Positions 21,485 to 56,954 of a stretch of DNA of 64,000 nucleotides are shown piece by piece; position 1 is the stretch's first letter; each line of letters starts with the position of its first letter. A program made the translations under genes and the position numbers. A model generated the notes under the pieces. The model did no database searches. It was not told the origin of the DNA and saw nothing but the letters and a program-made list of their open reading frames with translations. Origin of the DNA: Stappia sediminis (GTDB taxonomy: Bacteria; Pseudomonadota; Alphaproteobacteria; Rhizobiales; Stappiaceae); assembly GCF_009826895.1 (NCBI RefSeq), contig NZ_WUMV01000002.1:62001-126000 (forward strand), read 5' to 3'.

Positions 21485-21755
21485 CATCAGCTTATAGGTC
21501 CTATCCTGCGTCGAATTGACTTCCGTATTCCTCCGTCCAATGACTTCGTTCTATTTGCAAAACTGATGGAAAAGTCGATCGGGTAACCTCGAAAGGCCGG
21601 CTTTCTCCAAGGCGCGCTTCTGCTTCCACTTCAATGTTCGGCTGTGGTTGCGAATTCATCCGGATGGTTTCTATTGCCCGATGCGGCCATAATCGGAAAA
21701 CGAGGGCTATATATTGGTATGCCGTTTCTGAACATTCCTGACCGGAGGCGCATTG

Positions 21756-22211
21756 ATGGATATGAACCTCGTGCTTGTCGCAACGGACGGATCGGAGGCG
21801 GCGGGCAAGGCCTTTGAATTCGCAGTGGATATGGCCAAGTCTCATGCGGCAAGGTTGATCGTGCTTCACGTTCAAAAGAGGCATGGCAGTGACATCCTGC
21901 CCGCTGGGTTGGAGGAAGCCTCTTTTTCAATGAATGTATTGGGCAGCGAAGCCGAAATGTACAAAATAGCTGCCAGGCGGCTTGTCTCGGAATCCGCGCA
22001 GCACGCGCGTGGGGAAGGGGTCATCGATGTTGAGGAGCTCGTGGTCGAGGGCGATCCTTCACGCTTGATCGTGGAAGTCGCAAACAGCCGGAGCGTCGAT
22101 GTCATTGTAGTCGGAAGCCGTGGGCGGGAAGGATTGGAAGGCTTGATGCTCGGCAGCGTTAGCCACAAAGTGGCCCACGCAGCTCCTTGCACATGCATCA
22201 TCGTCCGGTAG
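21756..22211 (+). CDS. Universal stress protein (UspA family)
   Basis: 151-residue single-domain UspA protein. The start VLVATDGSEAAGKAFEFAV and the C-terminal ATP-binding motif GSRGREGLEGLMLGSVSHKVAHAAPC (G-x2-G-x9-G-S) are both intact, so it belongs to the nucleotide-binding branch. GGAGG lies eight bases before the ATG at 21756. It stands alone between the LysR gene and an AT-rich stretch, with about 270 bases of gene-free DNA on each side. No partner or specific stress can be inferred. Confidence 0.93.
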   Translation: MDMNLVLVATDGSEAAGKAFEFAVDMAKSHAARLIVLHVQKRHGSDILPAGLEEASFSMNVLGSEAEMYKIAARRLVSESAQHARGEGVIDVEELVVEGDPSRLIVEVANSRSVDVIVVGSRGREGLEGLMLGSVSHKVAHAAPCTCIIVR

Positions 22212-27045: not shown

Positions 27046-27462
27046 AAGCCGAGAGCCTTTTCTTCAAAAATGAAGTTTATTTCTCCATTGAAAATGGGAA
27101 TACATTCGAAATGTAAATGTAACTCTGGGGCGAAAATATGTCTCACGATCAAATTAGCAATCTGCGTTAAATTATATAAAAATTAAAACTAGTATTATTT
27201 GATTTTATATCAGAATTATTCTTGTTTTATATATTCTCTTGCGATCCCGGATTGCCACGTTGCTGTGGTAAATTAACGAATACGCGTTCGTGGAGCGTGC
27301 TCCTGCTGCCGAACGAATTCGCTCTTTTGTATAATCAAAAGGACTGTCGCCGGATCGCAGTTCTGCCGCGCCAGATGCATTCAGCAGGTTGATATTCATC
27401 AATTCCGATAAGATTGGCGCCGTGTAGCTTGTTTACTCTGTGGGAGAAGCGGAGTGCGAGCG
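27046..27462. other. AT-rich intergenic region between glycosyltransferase and acyl-CoA synthetase genes
   Basis: This 417-base gap is conspicuously AT-rich, above all at 27160-27245 (runs of A/T with few G/C), and contains no convincing gene. It must hold the divergent promoters of the minus-strand glycosyltransferase and the plus-strand synthetase operon. GGGAGAAGCGGAG just before 27463 is the ribosome site of the latter. The composition matches the stretch at 22380-22490 on the other side of the island. Confidence 0.6.
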
Positions 27463-29223
27463 ATGCCCACCAGTTGGCCTGTTATCGTCAAGACCGAAAT
27501 ACAGCGATCAAACGCCAATCTGGCAGATTATCAGTCAGAGTGTGAGCGGTTTACGTGGGACGATGCCCGCAAACTGCTCAGCTACCTTCCGGGCGGCTCG
27601 CTCAATATCTGTCATGAAGCCGTCGACAGGCACGTGGAGCACGGGCAGGGGAGCAATTTTGCGCTACGCTGGTTGGGGCGCAAAGGCGACACTCGCAACT
27701 TCACCTATAGTGACCTCCAGGCCGAGACAAGCCGTTTCGCGAATGTGCTTGCCGCTCATGGAATTGAGCGAAACGACAGCGTTTTTTCCCTGCTCGGGCG
27801 GGTGCCGGAACTTTACATCGCCGCACTCGGTACTCTTAAGCACGGCAGCGCTTATTCACCGCTTTTCTCCGCGTTCGGCCCTGAACCCGTGCGCATGCGC
27901 ATGGAGATCGGAAGGAGCGCGGCACTCGTTACGACGAAATCCTTGTACAAGCGTAAGGTCGAGGCGTGGCGAAATGAACTTCCGACGCTGAAATGCGTGT
28001 TTCTCATCGATGCGCATGGTGAAGACCTTCCGGATGGCACGATCGACCTTGCGAGCGAGATGGAACGCCGGCCCGAAACCTTCGAGACGGTGGAGACCCG
28101 GCCGGAAGATCGGGCGCTCATCCACTTCACCAGTGGCACGACGGGCCGGCCGAAGGGTGCGCTTCATGTGCATGAAGCCGTCGTTGCGCACGCGGTGACG
28201 GCGCGATTTGCCCTTGATCTGCGGCAGGGGGATATTTTCTGGTGTACCGCGGATCCGGGATGGGTCACCGGTACGTCGTATGGAATTATCGCGCCCCTCG
28301 TGCTTGGCGCCACGATGATCGTGGACGAAGGCGAGTACGATGCTGAACGCTGGTACGAAATCCTAAAAGAGCAGAAGGTGAACGTCTGGTACACGGCGCC
28401 GACGGCTATCCGCATGCTTATGAAGTACGGCGAAGAGCATGTCCGTTCGCGTGAATTTGCGCATCTGCGCTTCATGGCCAGCGTCGGCGAGCCATTGAAT
28501 CCGGAAGCGGTCATGTGGTCGATGCGTGCTTTCGGCATGCCCTTTCATGACAACTGGTGGCAAACGGAGACCGGCGGCATCATGATAGCCAACTTTGCTG
28601 CCGAAGATGTCAAGCCCGGCTCGATGGGACGGCCGCTTCCGGGCATCGAGGCGGGAATAGTCGAACGCCAAGATGGAGCGGTTCGGGAAATCACCGAGGA
28701 AAACCGGCCAGGGGAACTGGCGCTCAAGGTTGGCTGGCCGTCGATGATGCGCGGTTATCTGAACGAGGAAGAGCGATACAGGAAATGTTTCGCCGGCGAA
28801 TGGTACCTGACCGGCGATCTCGCCTACCGGGACGGGGATGGTTACTTCTGGTTTGTCGGGCGCGCGGACGATCTAATCAAGAGTTCAGGCCATCTCATCG
28901 GTCCATTCGAGGTTGAGAGCGCGCTGATTGAGCATGAGGCGGTGGCGGAGGCGGCGGTCATAGGGTTGCCGGATGAGACTGCGGGCGAGACCGTAAAGGC
29001 CTACGTGGTGCTCAACCCGGGCTTTGTGGAAAGCGAGGCGTTGGTGCGCGATATCATGGCACATGCCAGAAAGCGCCTCGGCCCCGCCGTTGCGCCACGC
29101 ATGATCGAGCCCTGCAAGACGTTGCCGCATACGCGCAGCGGAAAAGTCATGCGACGGCTCTTGAAGGCCCGGGAACTAGGCCTTCCCGAGGGCGATACCT
29201 CGACATTGGAGAGTGACAAATGA
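27463..29223 (+). CDS. Acetyl-CoA synthetase-like acyl-CoA synthetase (AMP-forming)
   Basis: 586-residue ANL-family adenylating enzyme, shorter than the 650-residue Acs. Motifs: the P-loop [37 protein letters not shown], the hinge [23 protein letters not shown] and the catalytic lysine region [15 protein letters not shown]. The tryptophan in DNWWQTE is typical of enzymes that take very small acids such as acetate or propionate. ATG at 27463 has GGAG eight bases upstream. First gene of the operon with E1, E2 and ACP, which all start in the previous stop codon, so it probably supplies or recycles acyl-CoA in that system. Confidence 0.85.
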
Positions 29224-30224
29224 GCAGGGCGGAGGATGGCCGCGTCCACTTGACGCGCGAGCACGCGCTCGAACTGTTGCGGCGAATGATGCTCATTCGC
29301 AGTTTCGAGGAAAAATGCGCCGAACTCTACACACAGGAAAAAATCCGCGGCTTTCTGCATCTTTACATTGGTGAGGAGGCCAATGCCGTTGGCGTCATGC
29401 AGGCGCTCGAACCCGAGGACGCGATCGTCGCGACCTACCGCGAGCATGGTCATGCACTTGCCAGGGGCATTTCCGCAAGCGCCGTCATGGCGGAAATGTA
29501 TGGCAAGGCGAGCGGGTCGAGCCGGGGGCGCGGCGGATCGATGCACATTTACGATGCGGGCCACCGCTTCTATGGGGGTAATGCGATTGTCGGGGGCGGA
29601 TTGCCGCTCGCGGTCGGCCTTGCCCTTGCCGACAAGATGCAGGGGCTGACCCGTGTGACTTGCTGTTTTTTCGGCGAAGGAGCTGCGGCGGAGGGCGAGT
29701 TCCATGAGTCCATGAACCTTGCCGCCTTGTGGAAGCTGCCGGTGCTGTTCGTATGCGAGAACAACGGCTACGCGATGGGCACCGCGCTCTCCCGCTCTGA
29801 GTCAAATCCCGACATCGCCGCCCATGCCGCGGTCTTCGGTATGCCGGCAGATGTGGTCGACGGCATGAATGTCGTTGACGTCGAGGCTGCGGCAAGGAGG
29901 GCAGCGAAGGCGGTGCGAGCCGGGGAGGGGCCGCGCTTTATCGAAAGCAAGACCTACCGTTTTCGCGCGCACTCCATGTTCGATGCCGAGCTTTACCGCG
30001 ACAAGTCCGAGGTTGAGGAATGGAAAAAGCGTGGGCCGGTGATTCGCTTTACGAAGTGGCTACTTGATACAGGTACCGCGCATGAAAGCGATATCGAGGC
30101 GATCGAGCGCGAGGTGGAAACTATTGTGGGCGATGCCGTCACTTTTGCCGAGGCGGCTCCATGGGAACCGGTCGACGACCTGACCAGGGATGTGATGTCT
30201 CCGGCGAAGGGGGCAGTGCGATGA
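29220..30224 (+). CDS. 2-oxoacid dehydrogenase E1 component, alpha subunit (TPP-dependent)
   Basis: 334-residue E1 alpha of the pyruvate/acetoin/branched-chain dehydrogenase type. The thiamine diphosphate motif runs from GEG (152-154) to ENN (180-182). [20 protein letters not shown] and [30 protein letters not shown] are characteristic of PdhA/AcoA. The phosphorylation-loop region [27 protein letters not shown] is also conserved. The ATG lies in the synthetase stop (ATGA). It forms an alpha2beta2 enzyme with the next gene product; pyruvate, acetoin or a short 2-oxoacid are all possible substrates. Confidence 0.88.
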
Positions 30225-31210
30225 CCGCGATGCGCACGATCACCTATCGGGAAGCGGTAAGGGAGGCCTTGCGGGAGGCGATGGCGCGCGACGAACGGGT
30301 TTTCCTTATGGGCGAGGACGTCGGGCGCTATGGCGGCGCTTATGCCTGCTCCAAAGGGCTCATCGAAGAGTTCGGCGAAGAGCGCGTGCGCGACACGCCG
30401 CTTTCGGAGGCCGGTTTTACGGGCGCCGGCATTGGAGCCGCACTAGGCGGCATGCGGCCGATCGTCGAGATCATGACGGTGAATTTCAGTCTCCTCGCGC
30501 TCGATCAGATCGTGAATACTGCCGCGACGCTTCGCCATATGTCTGGCGGGCAGATGTCCGTGCCACTCGTGATCCGCATGGCCACGGGTGCGGGTCGTCA
30601 ACTTGCCGCTCAGCATTCTCACAGCCTCGAATGCTGGTTTGCTCATGTGCCGGGCCTTCGCGTCGTTTCGCCGGCAACGGTGGCGGATGCGAGGGGAATG
30701 CTCTGGACGGCGCTCGAGGATCCAGATCCTGTTGTCATCTTCGAGCATGCCGCCCTTTACAACGATGAAGGGGAGGTTTCGGCGGAAGGAGATCTTGCAC
30801 GCGATCTGGACAGGGCGGCGGTGCGGCGGTCTGGTGAGGATGTTTCGATCATCACCTACTCCGGCAGTTTGAAGAAGGCGCTAACGGCGGCCGATACCCT
30901 TTCCGCAGAGGGCATTGACAGCGAGGTCATTGACTTGCGTTCCATAAGACCGCTCGACAATGAGACGATCCTGACTTCCGTAGCGAAAACCAAACGAGCC
31001 GTGATCGTCGACGAAGGTTGGCGAACGGGAGGTCTTTCCGCGGAAATTGCGGCCCGCATCAGTGAGTTGAGATTTTACGATCTCGATGCGCCTGTCGAGC
31101 GGGTATGCAGTGTTGAGGTGCCGATACCCTATCCTCGGCATCTGGAGACGGCAGCCACGCCTCAGCCGGACGGAATCATGACCGCCGTGCACAGGACGCT
31201 GCGTCGATGA
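30221..31210 (+). CDS. 2-oxoacid dehydrogenase E1 component, beta subunit
   Basis: 329-residue transketolase-like E1 beta. It starts [35 protein letters not shown] and contains [53 protein letters not shown] and [14 protein letters not shown], all typical of PdhB/AcoB. The HSHS/LECWF loop near the E1-E2 contact is normal for the family. The start in the E1 alpha stop codon (ATGA) implies equal synthesis of the two subunits. An earlier in-frame extension overlaps E1 alpha and is ignored. Confidence 0.9.
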
Positions 31211-32373
31211 GCGACTTCAAGATGCCCTCTCTCGGTGCCGACATGGATGCGGGTACGCTCGTCGAGTGGCTGAAACAACCGGGAGACAAGCTGGGCAAGG
31301 GCGATGTGATCGCCGTTGTCGAAACGCAGAAAGGAGCGATCGAGATCGAGGTTTTTCATGACGCCGTGATGGGTGTGCACCTCGTTGAGCCGGGCGAGCG
31401 TGTCACGGTGGGCACCACGATTGCGCGTCTTGATGATGGTGAAATAGAAGAGCCTGAGCATGAGGCAGCTGCCCCGCCTTCGGCTCTACCTGCAACTGAA
31501 ACCTTAGCTCCGGCGGCAGTTGCGCATATTCGGAAGCCGGAAGAAGAACGGCTGAAGATCACGCCGGCGGCTCGAAAGCGTGCTGAAGAGATGGGCATTG
31601 ATCTGCAGATCGTTTCGCCAGATGCAGCTGGTGTCATCGGATTGGCCGAATTGGAGGCTGCCGCGAAAGGGCAGACACCAATATTAACGCGTACGAAAGC
31701 TGGCATCGATCCGGTGGAAATGCGAAGGGCGATTGCCGCTGCAATGGCAAGGTCCAAGCGCGAAATCCCTCACTACTATGTGAGTTCGGATCTCGATGTG
31801 ACCGCACTTATGACGTGGCTTGAAGGAGAGAACCGGAAAAGGCCGGTAGCTGAACGGCTGCTCTACGCGGTCCCGCTTATCCGGGCGCTCTGTCTTTCGC
31901 TTGCGAAGACGCCGGAGCTGAATGGTATTCACGAAGGTGACGTTTTCCGCCCAGATGAAGCGGTACATGCCGGGATCGCCGTTTCAATGCGCGGCGGCGG
32001 TCTGATCGCTCCGGCAATCCTCAATGCGGATACCCTCGATCTCGATGTGCTGAGGAAGGCCCTAGCCGATCTCGTACAGCGGGTGCGCGCCGGCAGGCTG
32101 AAGAGCTCGGAAATGACTTCGGCGACCGTGACCATATCCAATCTCGGAGAAAAAACTGCCGATATGCTGATGCCGGTGATCTATCCGCCGCAGGTGGCAA
32201 TCATCGGATGCGGACAAATCCGGGAAACCGCGCGCTTCAAGAGCGGAGCGTGGCAGGCAAGGCGCGTCATGACCGTGACGGTCGCCGCAGATCACAGGGT
32301 GAGCGATGGGCGAATAGCCGCCCGGTTTCTCAACGACGCCCAAAGGCAACTCGATCATCCGGAGAAGCTATGA
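31207..32373 (+). CDS. 2-oxoacid dehydrogenase E2, dihydrolipoamide acyltransferase
   Basis: 388-residue E2 with one N-terminal lipoyl domain (lipoyl lysine Lys42 in [12 protein letters not shown]), a peripheral-subunit-binding domain at about residues 117-152 ([31 protein letters not shown]) and a C-terminal catalytic domain ending in DHRVSDG with His363 and Asp367. All catalytic features are intact. The complex lacks its own E3 gene, so a general lipoamide dehydrogenase must reoxidise it unless the acyl group is drawn off to another acceptor such as the ACP encoded next. Start and stop overlap both neighbours by four bases. Confidence 0.9.
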
Positions 32374-32621
32374 CGCAAGAGCAAAGCGAAGATCTCGTAA
32401 AGCGCATTCTCTTTCAGGTCGCGCCGGAGCTGGAAGGTGAGGACGTCGACCCGGATGAACCCTTCCGTGAGCAGTTCGAGATCGATTCCATGGATTTCCT
32501 GAATCTGGTGATCGGTCTCAACAAGGAGACGGGTATTGAAATCCCGGAGGAGGACTACCCTAAACTGGAAACCCTTTCAGGCTGTGTCGCGTACCTTAAT
32601 CAGCGGAAGGGGCAGACGTAG
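32370..32621 (+). CDS. Acyl carrier protein
   Basis: 83-residue acidic carrier protein. The phosphopantetheine site is IDSMDFLNLV with Ser40, close to the DSLD consensus, and the four-helix pattern is complete (EDLVKRILFQVAPELEG; SGCVAYLNQRKG). It is not the housekeeping AcpP, which has the GADSLDTVE form. The ATG overlaps the E2 stop (ATGA), so it is made together with the E1-E2 complex. A carrier protein beside an oxoacid dehydrogenase suggests that acyl groups from E2 or the acyl-CoA synthetase are loaded onto it; no ketosynthase or condensation gene is nearby. Confidence 0.9.
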   Translation: MTQEQSEDLVKRILFQVAPELEGEDVDPDEPFREQFEIDSMDFLNLVIGLNKETGIEIPEEDYPKLETLSGCVAYLNQRKGQT

Positions 32622-48506: not shown

Positions 48507-52652
<4,146 letters not shown>

Positions 52653-52754
52653 TAGTGCTCCGCCCGTCCAGCCGTATTACGAAATGCTGCATTGCCGGCA
52701 AGGGGAGTGGGGCACGGCCCATGCTCCCCGTCCGTGCATCTGAGGAGAGAACCC

Positions 52755-56954
<4,200 letters not shown>

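Follow-up and report, generated by a model that had tools for sequence, protein, structure and literature searches.

The locus described here raises one question: why should the subunits of a pyruvate-dehydrogenase-type complex be encoded together with an acyl carrier protein of their own, when lipoyl-dependent dehydrogenases hand acyl groups to coenzyme A (CoA)? Within a 64,000-nucleotide stretch of the Stappia sediminis genome (hereafter the window; assembly GCF_009826895.1, contig NZ_WUMV01000002.1, positions 62,001 to 126,000), five overlapping genes encode an acetate ligase, the E1-alpha, E1-beta and E2 subunits of an oxoacid dehydrogenase and a stand-alone acyl carrier protein (ACP). An earlier note had described them as what looks like a self-contained acyl-activation module of unknown purpose, in which the ACP, charged from lipoyl-E2 or from the acyl-CoA of the synthetase, might provide a starter unit for an unlinked synthase. 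The module is a pyruvate dehydrogenase (PDH)-type E1/E2 pair with a co-inherited ACP and acetate ligase, and it is real and conserved. We tentatively read it, at somewhat less than an even chance, as a mobile accessory unit for low oxygen in which acetyl would move among lipoyl-E2, ACP and acetate ligase. The earlier interpretation is partly supported; overlooked in it were an FNR/FixK box, the stress-island-like surroundings of many relatives and the acetyl-directed entry enzymes.

Organization of the operon and identity of its enzymes

The operon opens with the gene of an AMP-forming acetate--CoA ligase (AcsA, PRK04319 type; 27463-29223), followed on the same forward strand by those of E1-alpha (29220-30224), E1-beta (30221-31210), an E2 with lipoyl, altered peripheral-subunit-binding and acyltransferase domains (31207-32373; PF00364, PF00198) and the ACP (32370-32621). 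Each of the four junctions is an ATGA overlap (29220, 30221, 31207 and 32370); reread from the sequence, all coordinates agree with those first reported, and the overlaps suggest that the five proteins would be made together. The ligase begins at ATG 27463 or possibly at GTG 27454, the former being favoured because of a GGAG at 27451-27454. The next gene downstream of the ACP encodes a LacI-type regulator on the opposite strand, so the reported lack of an E3 gene after E2 and ACP holds. A separate PDH with its own lpd is encoded on contig C18 of this 4.79 Mb genome (22 contigs, the window lying on C11), and further E2-like genes are found on contigs C17 and C12.

The first product, originally termed an acyl-CoA synthetase, is a ligase of this kind whose assignment can be refined to the acetate type, as it scored 880 bits with NF003313 (acetate--CoA ligase; cut-off 729); 9g79 is a solved relative. 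The motif WWQ[TS]ETG and Lys564 (counted from the 27454 start) were retained in 95 of 95 aligned homologues, and we take the WW to hold the acyl-pocket tryptophan and Lys564 to be the catalytic lysine. An arginine at the position that we presume to bind the CoA 3'-phosphate in Salmonella Acs was kept in 94 of the 95. E1-alpha, with the thiamine diphosphate (ThDP) motif GEG...ENN, reached 445.3 bits with TIGR03182 (cut-off 393.85), its best solved relatives being mitochondrial PDH E1-alpha chains, and E1-beta reached 419 bits with NF006667 (cut-off 321); the ThDP motif is conserved among the aligned homologues. The ligase being of acetate type and the E1 of pyruvate type, both ends therefore make acetyl, and the operon probably channels pyruvate as well as acetate into a common activated acetyl group, beside a dedicated carrier.

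The catalytic residues first reported for E2 and ACP are present and under constraint. In E2, which scored 195 bits with the E2p equivalog TIGR01349 (under the cut-off of 445), Lys42 lies in ETQKG and is found in 108 of 109 module E2s, the remaining one having a gap; His363 and Asp367, in DHRVSDG, are found in 109 and 105 of the 109 respectively. The ACP passed the PF00550 cut-off (35.2 bits against 20.8) and stayed under that of the housekeeping fatty-acid ACP model TIGR00517 (41.2 bits against 70.45). Its Ser40, in IDSMDF, is invariant in 106 aligned homologues, and at 102 of 108 loci the ACP gene begins no more than 30 nt from the stop codon of E2.

Conservation and co-inheritance of the gene string

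A scan of named genomes returned at least 588 stretches encoding E2 relatives, of which the best 80 were kept as loci (numbered with the prefix L). The canonical order was present in 69 of these 80, and all five genes in another order in L086; at six loci (L057, L071, L072, L076, L089 and L092) the contig begins inside the operon. The ACP was found in 78 of the 80, the exceptions being two contigs that end at E2 (L111 and L128), and lies within 600 nt of E2 in 77 of the 78. The remaining locus, L125, had been considered as an ACP-less counterexample and was rejected when a hidden Markov model search located an ACP 1 kb downstream and a ligase upstream. At L107 the ACP was under the score threshold in one scan and was detected in two others. 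The E2 reading frame of Paracoccus salsus (L112:8813-11499) carries about 350 extra N-terminal residues with no NCBIfam match and is followed by an ACP. Several loci, among them L034, L035, L042, L043, L044 and L046, have a single open reading frame (ORF) in which E1-alpha is fused to E1-beta.

Since these 80 loci were picked by E2 similarity, a separate, unselected set was searched as well, made up of 299 genomes sampled from the phylum with the window's own among them. A module-type E2 was present in 10 of them (at least 436 bits; next score 305), and a module-type ACP in the same 10 (at least 84.9 bits; next score 55.8), directly downstream of E2 and with the five genes in order in every case; the profile searches scored part of the first-look candidates (up to 18 / 6 per genome), so that misses are possible. 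Together with the order kept in named genomes, this complete co-occurrence supports the fixed, co-inherited module supposed in the earlier note, which had proposed looking for the synthetase-E1a-E1b-E2-ACP string in other genomes; that string was found across phyla, and an ACP absent or replaced at random was not what the 80 loci and 10 genomes displayed. The five-gene string is real and beyond chance, because the same string recurs across phyla. No published description of it was found in the mostly open-access literature, which does not show its absence from print.

Among plasmids, an ACP relative occurred in 37 records of the collection and E2 matches in 660, with a gap between 38.7-49.8% (module-like) and 33.2% identity among the 40 matches listed; 17 of the 19 plasmid loci inspected carry the five genes in order. 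The Rhodococcus opacus S8 plasmid locus (L051) is a remnant. In Sinorhizobium sojae, an orphan module-type E2 (L048:9836-11167) stands without E1, ligase or ACP, near a protein with ACP, AMP-binding and PlsC domains. Two records of Neisseria gonorrhoeae (NZ_CP119142.1 and NZ_CP119140.1, 2.17 Mb) are chromosome-like sequences filed as plasmids.

Eleven phyla are represented among the named carriers: Pseudomonadota, Actinomycetota, Acidobacteriota, Nitrospirota, Planctomycetota, Thermodesulfobacteriota, Campylobacterota, Bacteroidota, Verrucomicrobiota, Cyanobacteriota and Rokuibacteriota; many carriers are known from metagenome bins alone. In the E2 tree, 109 module E2s split on a branch with SH-aLRT 100 from 21 housekeeping E2p of the window's phylum, which formed the whole of the other group. 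Members of different phyla are to some extent intermingled, as gene transfer would produce, many forks being open. In the window's own family, a clear ACP relative was found in 2 of 36 other sampled genomes (G012 and G004). At one locus of this family (L037:9630-10825) E2 is read as two overlapping ORFs, lipoyl and catalytic, by a natural split or a sequence error.

An altered E2 without a linked E3

The 109 module E2s (L048, L037 and L051 left out) were compared with the 21 housekeeping E2p, taken from 20 genomes of the window's phylum. The peripheral-subunit-binding domain, at about residues 117-150 in the window's protein, scored 22.8 bits with PF02817, just below the cut-off of 23.7. The arginine of its GR[IV] motif is present in all 21 housekeeping sequences, and the position is basic in 2 of 109 module E2s (A 70, S 15, V 12, I 4, T 3, E 2, C 1, R 1, K 1); the net charge of the binding segment is 0.33 in module against 2.1 in housekeeping E2s. 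In the core, SVND (21 of 21 housekeeping) mostly becomes L-x-[AG]-[AV]. A review (PMC6270654) describes the contacts of E2 binding domains as electrostatic and those with E3 as likely conserved wherever several E2s of an organism share one E3. These differences point to a possibly insulated complex, and weakened E3 recruitment would be one reading of them. No Lpd-like ORF (E 1e-15) was found at the module loci searched; an unlinked E3 could serve the E2.

The lipoyl-lysine motif is also altered: DKA in 21 of 21 housekeeping E2p, it is variable in module E2s, the first residue being Q in 55 and the third being G in 86 of the 109. This change bears on a competing explanation, in which the module is a second PDH making acetyl-CoA at low oxygen, for example for polyhydroxybutyrate, and its ACP the octanoyl donor that lipoylates a divergent E2. 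The arginine retained by the ligase, which we take to bind CoA, would fit such a pathway, as would PhaC genes near some loci (counted below). Lipoylation uses octanoyl-ACP, as is generally known and stated in the accessible part of PMC9307952. A lipB gene lies directly after the ACP at three loci (L063:5607-6359, L071:3406-4038 and L102:11559-12254) and in none of 40 control stretches; the three belong to one Thermodesulfobacteriota clade. By blastp with one query each from the window's genome, a search that distant copies may escape, no further module locus gave a match to lipB, and none gave one to lipA. Furthermore, the lipoylation account leaves the near-constant acetate ligase unexplained, whose distances track those of E2 most closely. 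We regard it as the main rival, though somewhat less probable than the acetyl relay.

Possible coupling of the ACP to E2 and ligase

The acetyl relay would have the ACP working with E2 and ligase, and the covariation of gene distances was analysed by a mirror-tree approach on 89 of 93 loci, leaving out short members, L086 and the near copy L054. Partial correlations were 0.57 for E1-alpha with E1-beta and 0.30 for E2 with E1-beta, as expected, and 0.49 for ligase with E2 even though their genes are not adjacent. For the ACP they were 0.21 with the ligase, 0.18 with E2 and 0.11 and 0.03 with the E1 subunits; its top partner in half-samples was the ligase in 59% and E2 in 37%. These values are weakly consistent with an ACP working with E2 and ligase. 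At L086 (L086:5985-11457), another PDH-type E1 pair replaces the usual one, and ligase, E2 and ACP are contiguous. A relay from E2 through ACP to the ligase is favoured because of both this contiguity and the coupling of gene distances; since the ligase keeps its presumed CoA-binding arginine, CoA may take part in it.

In the biosynthesis of naphthyridinomycin, NapB/NapC/NapD are reported to deliver a C2 acyl unit to an ACP by ThDP and lipoyl chemistry. That system may serve as a precedent for transfer from E2 to ACP; its donor is a ketose phosphate and it works with a peptide synthetase, whereas the present module has a pyruvate-type E1 and an acetate ligase.

A stand-alone ACP together with an acyl-activating enzyme would also suit the proposal of the earlier note, that the ACP-bound acyl group is the starter unit of an unlinked synthase for fatty acids or polyketides. 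In Rhodococcus sp. DK17, the annotation places the end of a KAS III-like gene about 8 kb upstream of the module, and the genes upstream in Sulfitobacter sp. SK012 include FabI, Pta-like and acetate kinase genes. Blastp queries with the FabF-type and KAS III-type ketosynthases of the window's genome, however, gave no match (E 1e-10) at module loci, the same search giving a FabF-type match in 2 of the 40 control stretches, and among 45 neighbour clusters, about half of them with a representative or member scanned, no ketosynthase appeared among those scanned. Searches for linked ketosynthases cannot reach a truly unlinked synthase; as it stands, the starter-unit proposal is unsupported by the blastp results at module loci, and we consider it improbable.

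Putative low-oxygen control sites

A perfect FNR/FixK-type palindrome, TTGATATTCATCAA, is located at 27389-27402 on the forward strand, its centre about 67 nt before the ATG of the ligase. It is the sole exact TTGATN4ATCAA in the window (0.08 expected); with one mismatch allowed, six sites occur against 5.2 by chance. Upstream regions of 180 nt from 83 loci, own included and the nine unselected loci left out, were then compared (a wider first look had taken in 87 regions). A perfect TTGAYN4RTCAA was found in 13 of the 83, where 0.06 were expected from shuffles, and a site matching at 9 or 10 of 10 positions in 30, against 1.1 expected. The Streptomyces fungicidicus copy is preceded by an OsdR-like site instead, none of 200 shuffles scoring as high; in PMC5069765, gel shifts are reported to show OsdR binding to its sites at pyruvate phosphate dikinase and at universal stress genes. 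The FNR/FixK box may act as an activator site, and judging from such upstream motifs the module is probably under low-oxygen control in many Pseudomonadota.

Stress-related neighbours of relatives

Neighbouring genes were clustered over 103 loci (L029-L131). The recurrent ones are phosphoribosyltransferase-erythromycin-esterase proteins (20 loci), Hsp20 (17) and PolX (12), followed by DUF2267, P-type ATPase, phosphoribosyl pyrophosphate synthetase-like, CBS and phosphoenolpyruvate (PEP) synthase proteins (11 each), PhaC (9), Cpn60 (8) and universal stress protein (USP; 6); a common ABC-transporter ATPase forms the second largest cluster (19 loci) and is not listed here. Most of these stress-related families have counterparts in the accessible part of the published table of the lxa locus (PMC4981469).

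Nine stress-family profiles, which replaced a plain blastp that detected few short families, were then applied to each set. They had been trained on the plasmid and genome loci, only the nine unselected loci being independent. The 40 control stretches, each 20 kb long, came from ten genomes of the window's order, its own among them, and were taken at chosen round positions and not at random. A profile for the ACP-AMPbind-PlsC proteins (hits in 17, 41, 9 and 5) was dropped, as it spread to AMP-binding proteins generally. At least one of the nine families was found at 16 of 17 plasmid loci, 23 of 41 full-length genome loci, 4 of 9 unselected loci and 2 of 40 control stretches, and at least two at 12 plasmid, 17 genome and one unselected locus and in one control stretch.

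Proteins combining ACP, AMP-binding and PlsC domains cluster near 13 loci (among them L036:3134-5953, L045:11663-14560, L048:12335-15217, L029:24945-27230 and L084:13249-16092). One could suppose that the module's ACP serves membrane-lipid acylation with them; however, they have an ACP domain of their own, the 13 loci are a minority of the 103, and the constant partners of the module's ACP are E2 and the ligase, which makes this use very improbable.

In the window itself, a USP gene (21753-22211, forward strand; PF00582, E 1.9e-34) lies 5.2 kb upstream of the operon and may be linked to it. The genes between them encode a sulfotransferase, a DUF6212 protein and a glycosyltransferase, in a stretch of partly lower GC. 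Farther away, at 48507-56954, two very long forward-strand ORFs (1381 and 1420 aa) lie opposite long ORFs.

Discussion

In the mechanism that we favour, E1 would decarboxylate pyruvate and acetylate the lipoyl group of its own E2, which may then hand the acetyl onward, partly to the dedicated holo-ACP. The acetate ligase would interconvert the activated acetyl, including an acetyl-ACP pool, with acetate and ATP, and the lipoyl group would be reoxidised by the housekeeping E3 or another oxidant. The likeliest direction is from pyruvate to acetate with a gain of ATP (AMP and pyrophosphate to ATP); such a disposal would have its parallel in the acetate kinase and the phosphate acetyl/butyryl transferase included in the lxa table (PMC4981469). 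The strictest version, an E3-less PDH in which E2 passes acetyl to the ACP and on to the AMP-forming ligase as a CoA-sparing tethered relay yielding ATP at low oxygen, which gene transfer would have carried into some eleven phyla, seems unlikely as a whole.

The opposite direction, from acetate through an acetyl thioester to pyruvate and then to PEP via the nearby PEP synthase, would account for the frequency of PEP-synthase-type proteins near the module and for the lack of a linked E3. Lipoyl-dependent reductive carboxylation of acetyl-CoA is generally known to be strongly uphill, however; a low-potential donor was not noticed nearby, no search for one having been made, and PEP synthase is also listed in the lxa table, which in its accessible part has no acs-E1-E2-ACP operon. 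Reverse running is, accordingly, the least probable of the explanations considered here.

Several observations weigh against the acetyl relay at low oxygen. The strongest is the lipB gene behind the ACP in the Thermodesulfobacteriota clade. The ligase, given its kept arginine, probably still uses CoA. Acetyl-ACP is a predicted intermediate, and the partial correlations of the ACP are small, with half-sample spreads of 0.05-0.07 that weaken the contrast with E1. With an altered binding domain and no E3 gene nearby, the oxidant of the lipoyl group may be the housekeeping E3 or something else. The string is not complete everywhere: L107 has no ligase in the 2.6 kb upstream, and L112 has E2 and ACP with no ligase or complete E1. 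As to oxygen control, 53 of the 83 upstream regions have no site at 9/10 or better, and the OsdR-like site was not found at four other actinobacterial loci (L091 has no upstream sequence). As to stress islands, none of the nine families occurs at 5 of the 9 unselected loci, two or more occur at 1 of 9 against 1 of 40 controls, and the setting in the window is poor, with one USP alone.

Compared with known systems, the module resembles the PDH complex in its E1 of equivalog score, lipoyl lysine and E2 acyltransferase motif, its solved relatives being PDH E1 and E2; it differs in having no linked E3, in the replaced binding-domain arginine and SVND, in the attached ACP and acetate ligase, and in an E2 that forms a clade apart from the 21 alphaproteobacterial E2p. 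Its ligase passes the NF003313 cut-off as AMP-forming AcsA does; what sets it apart is that in its clade it stands beside E1, E2 and ACP, mostly in the canonical order. The neighbours of relatives are shared with the lxa locus of Burkholderia and the DosR/OsdR regulons, as far as the accessible parts of PMC4981469, PMC5069765 and PMC6127331 go: USP, heat shock protein, PEP synthase, PncB, phosphofructokinase, polyhydroxyalkanoate polymerase, metallopeptidase, cation ATPase, acetate kinase and CRP-type regulators. In contrast, no acs-E1-E2-ACP string is listed in the accessible part of the lxa table (PMC4981469), and the window has just the USP nearby.

Taken together, a widespread, co-inherited set of E2, ACP and acetate ligase with low-oxygen-type sites suggests that central metabolism has an acetyl carrier other than CoA or else that a stand-alone ACP plays a part not yet recognised, perhaps in lipoylation, within a dehydrogenase complex. 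Either would tie a definite function to genes that accumulate in the islands linked to bacterial survival at low oxygen.

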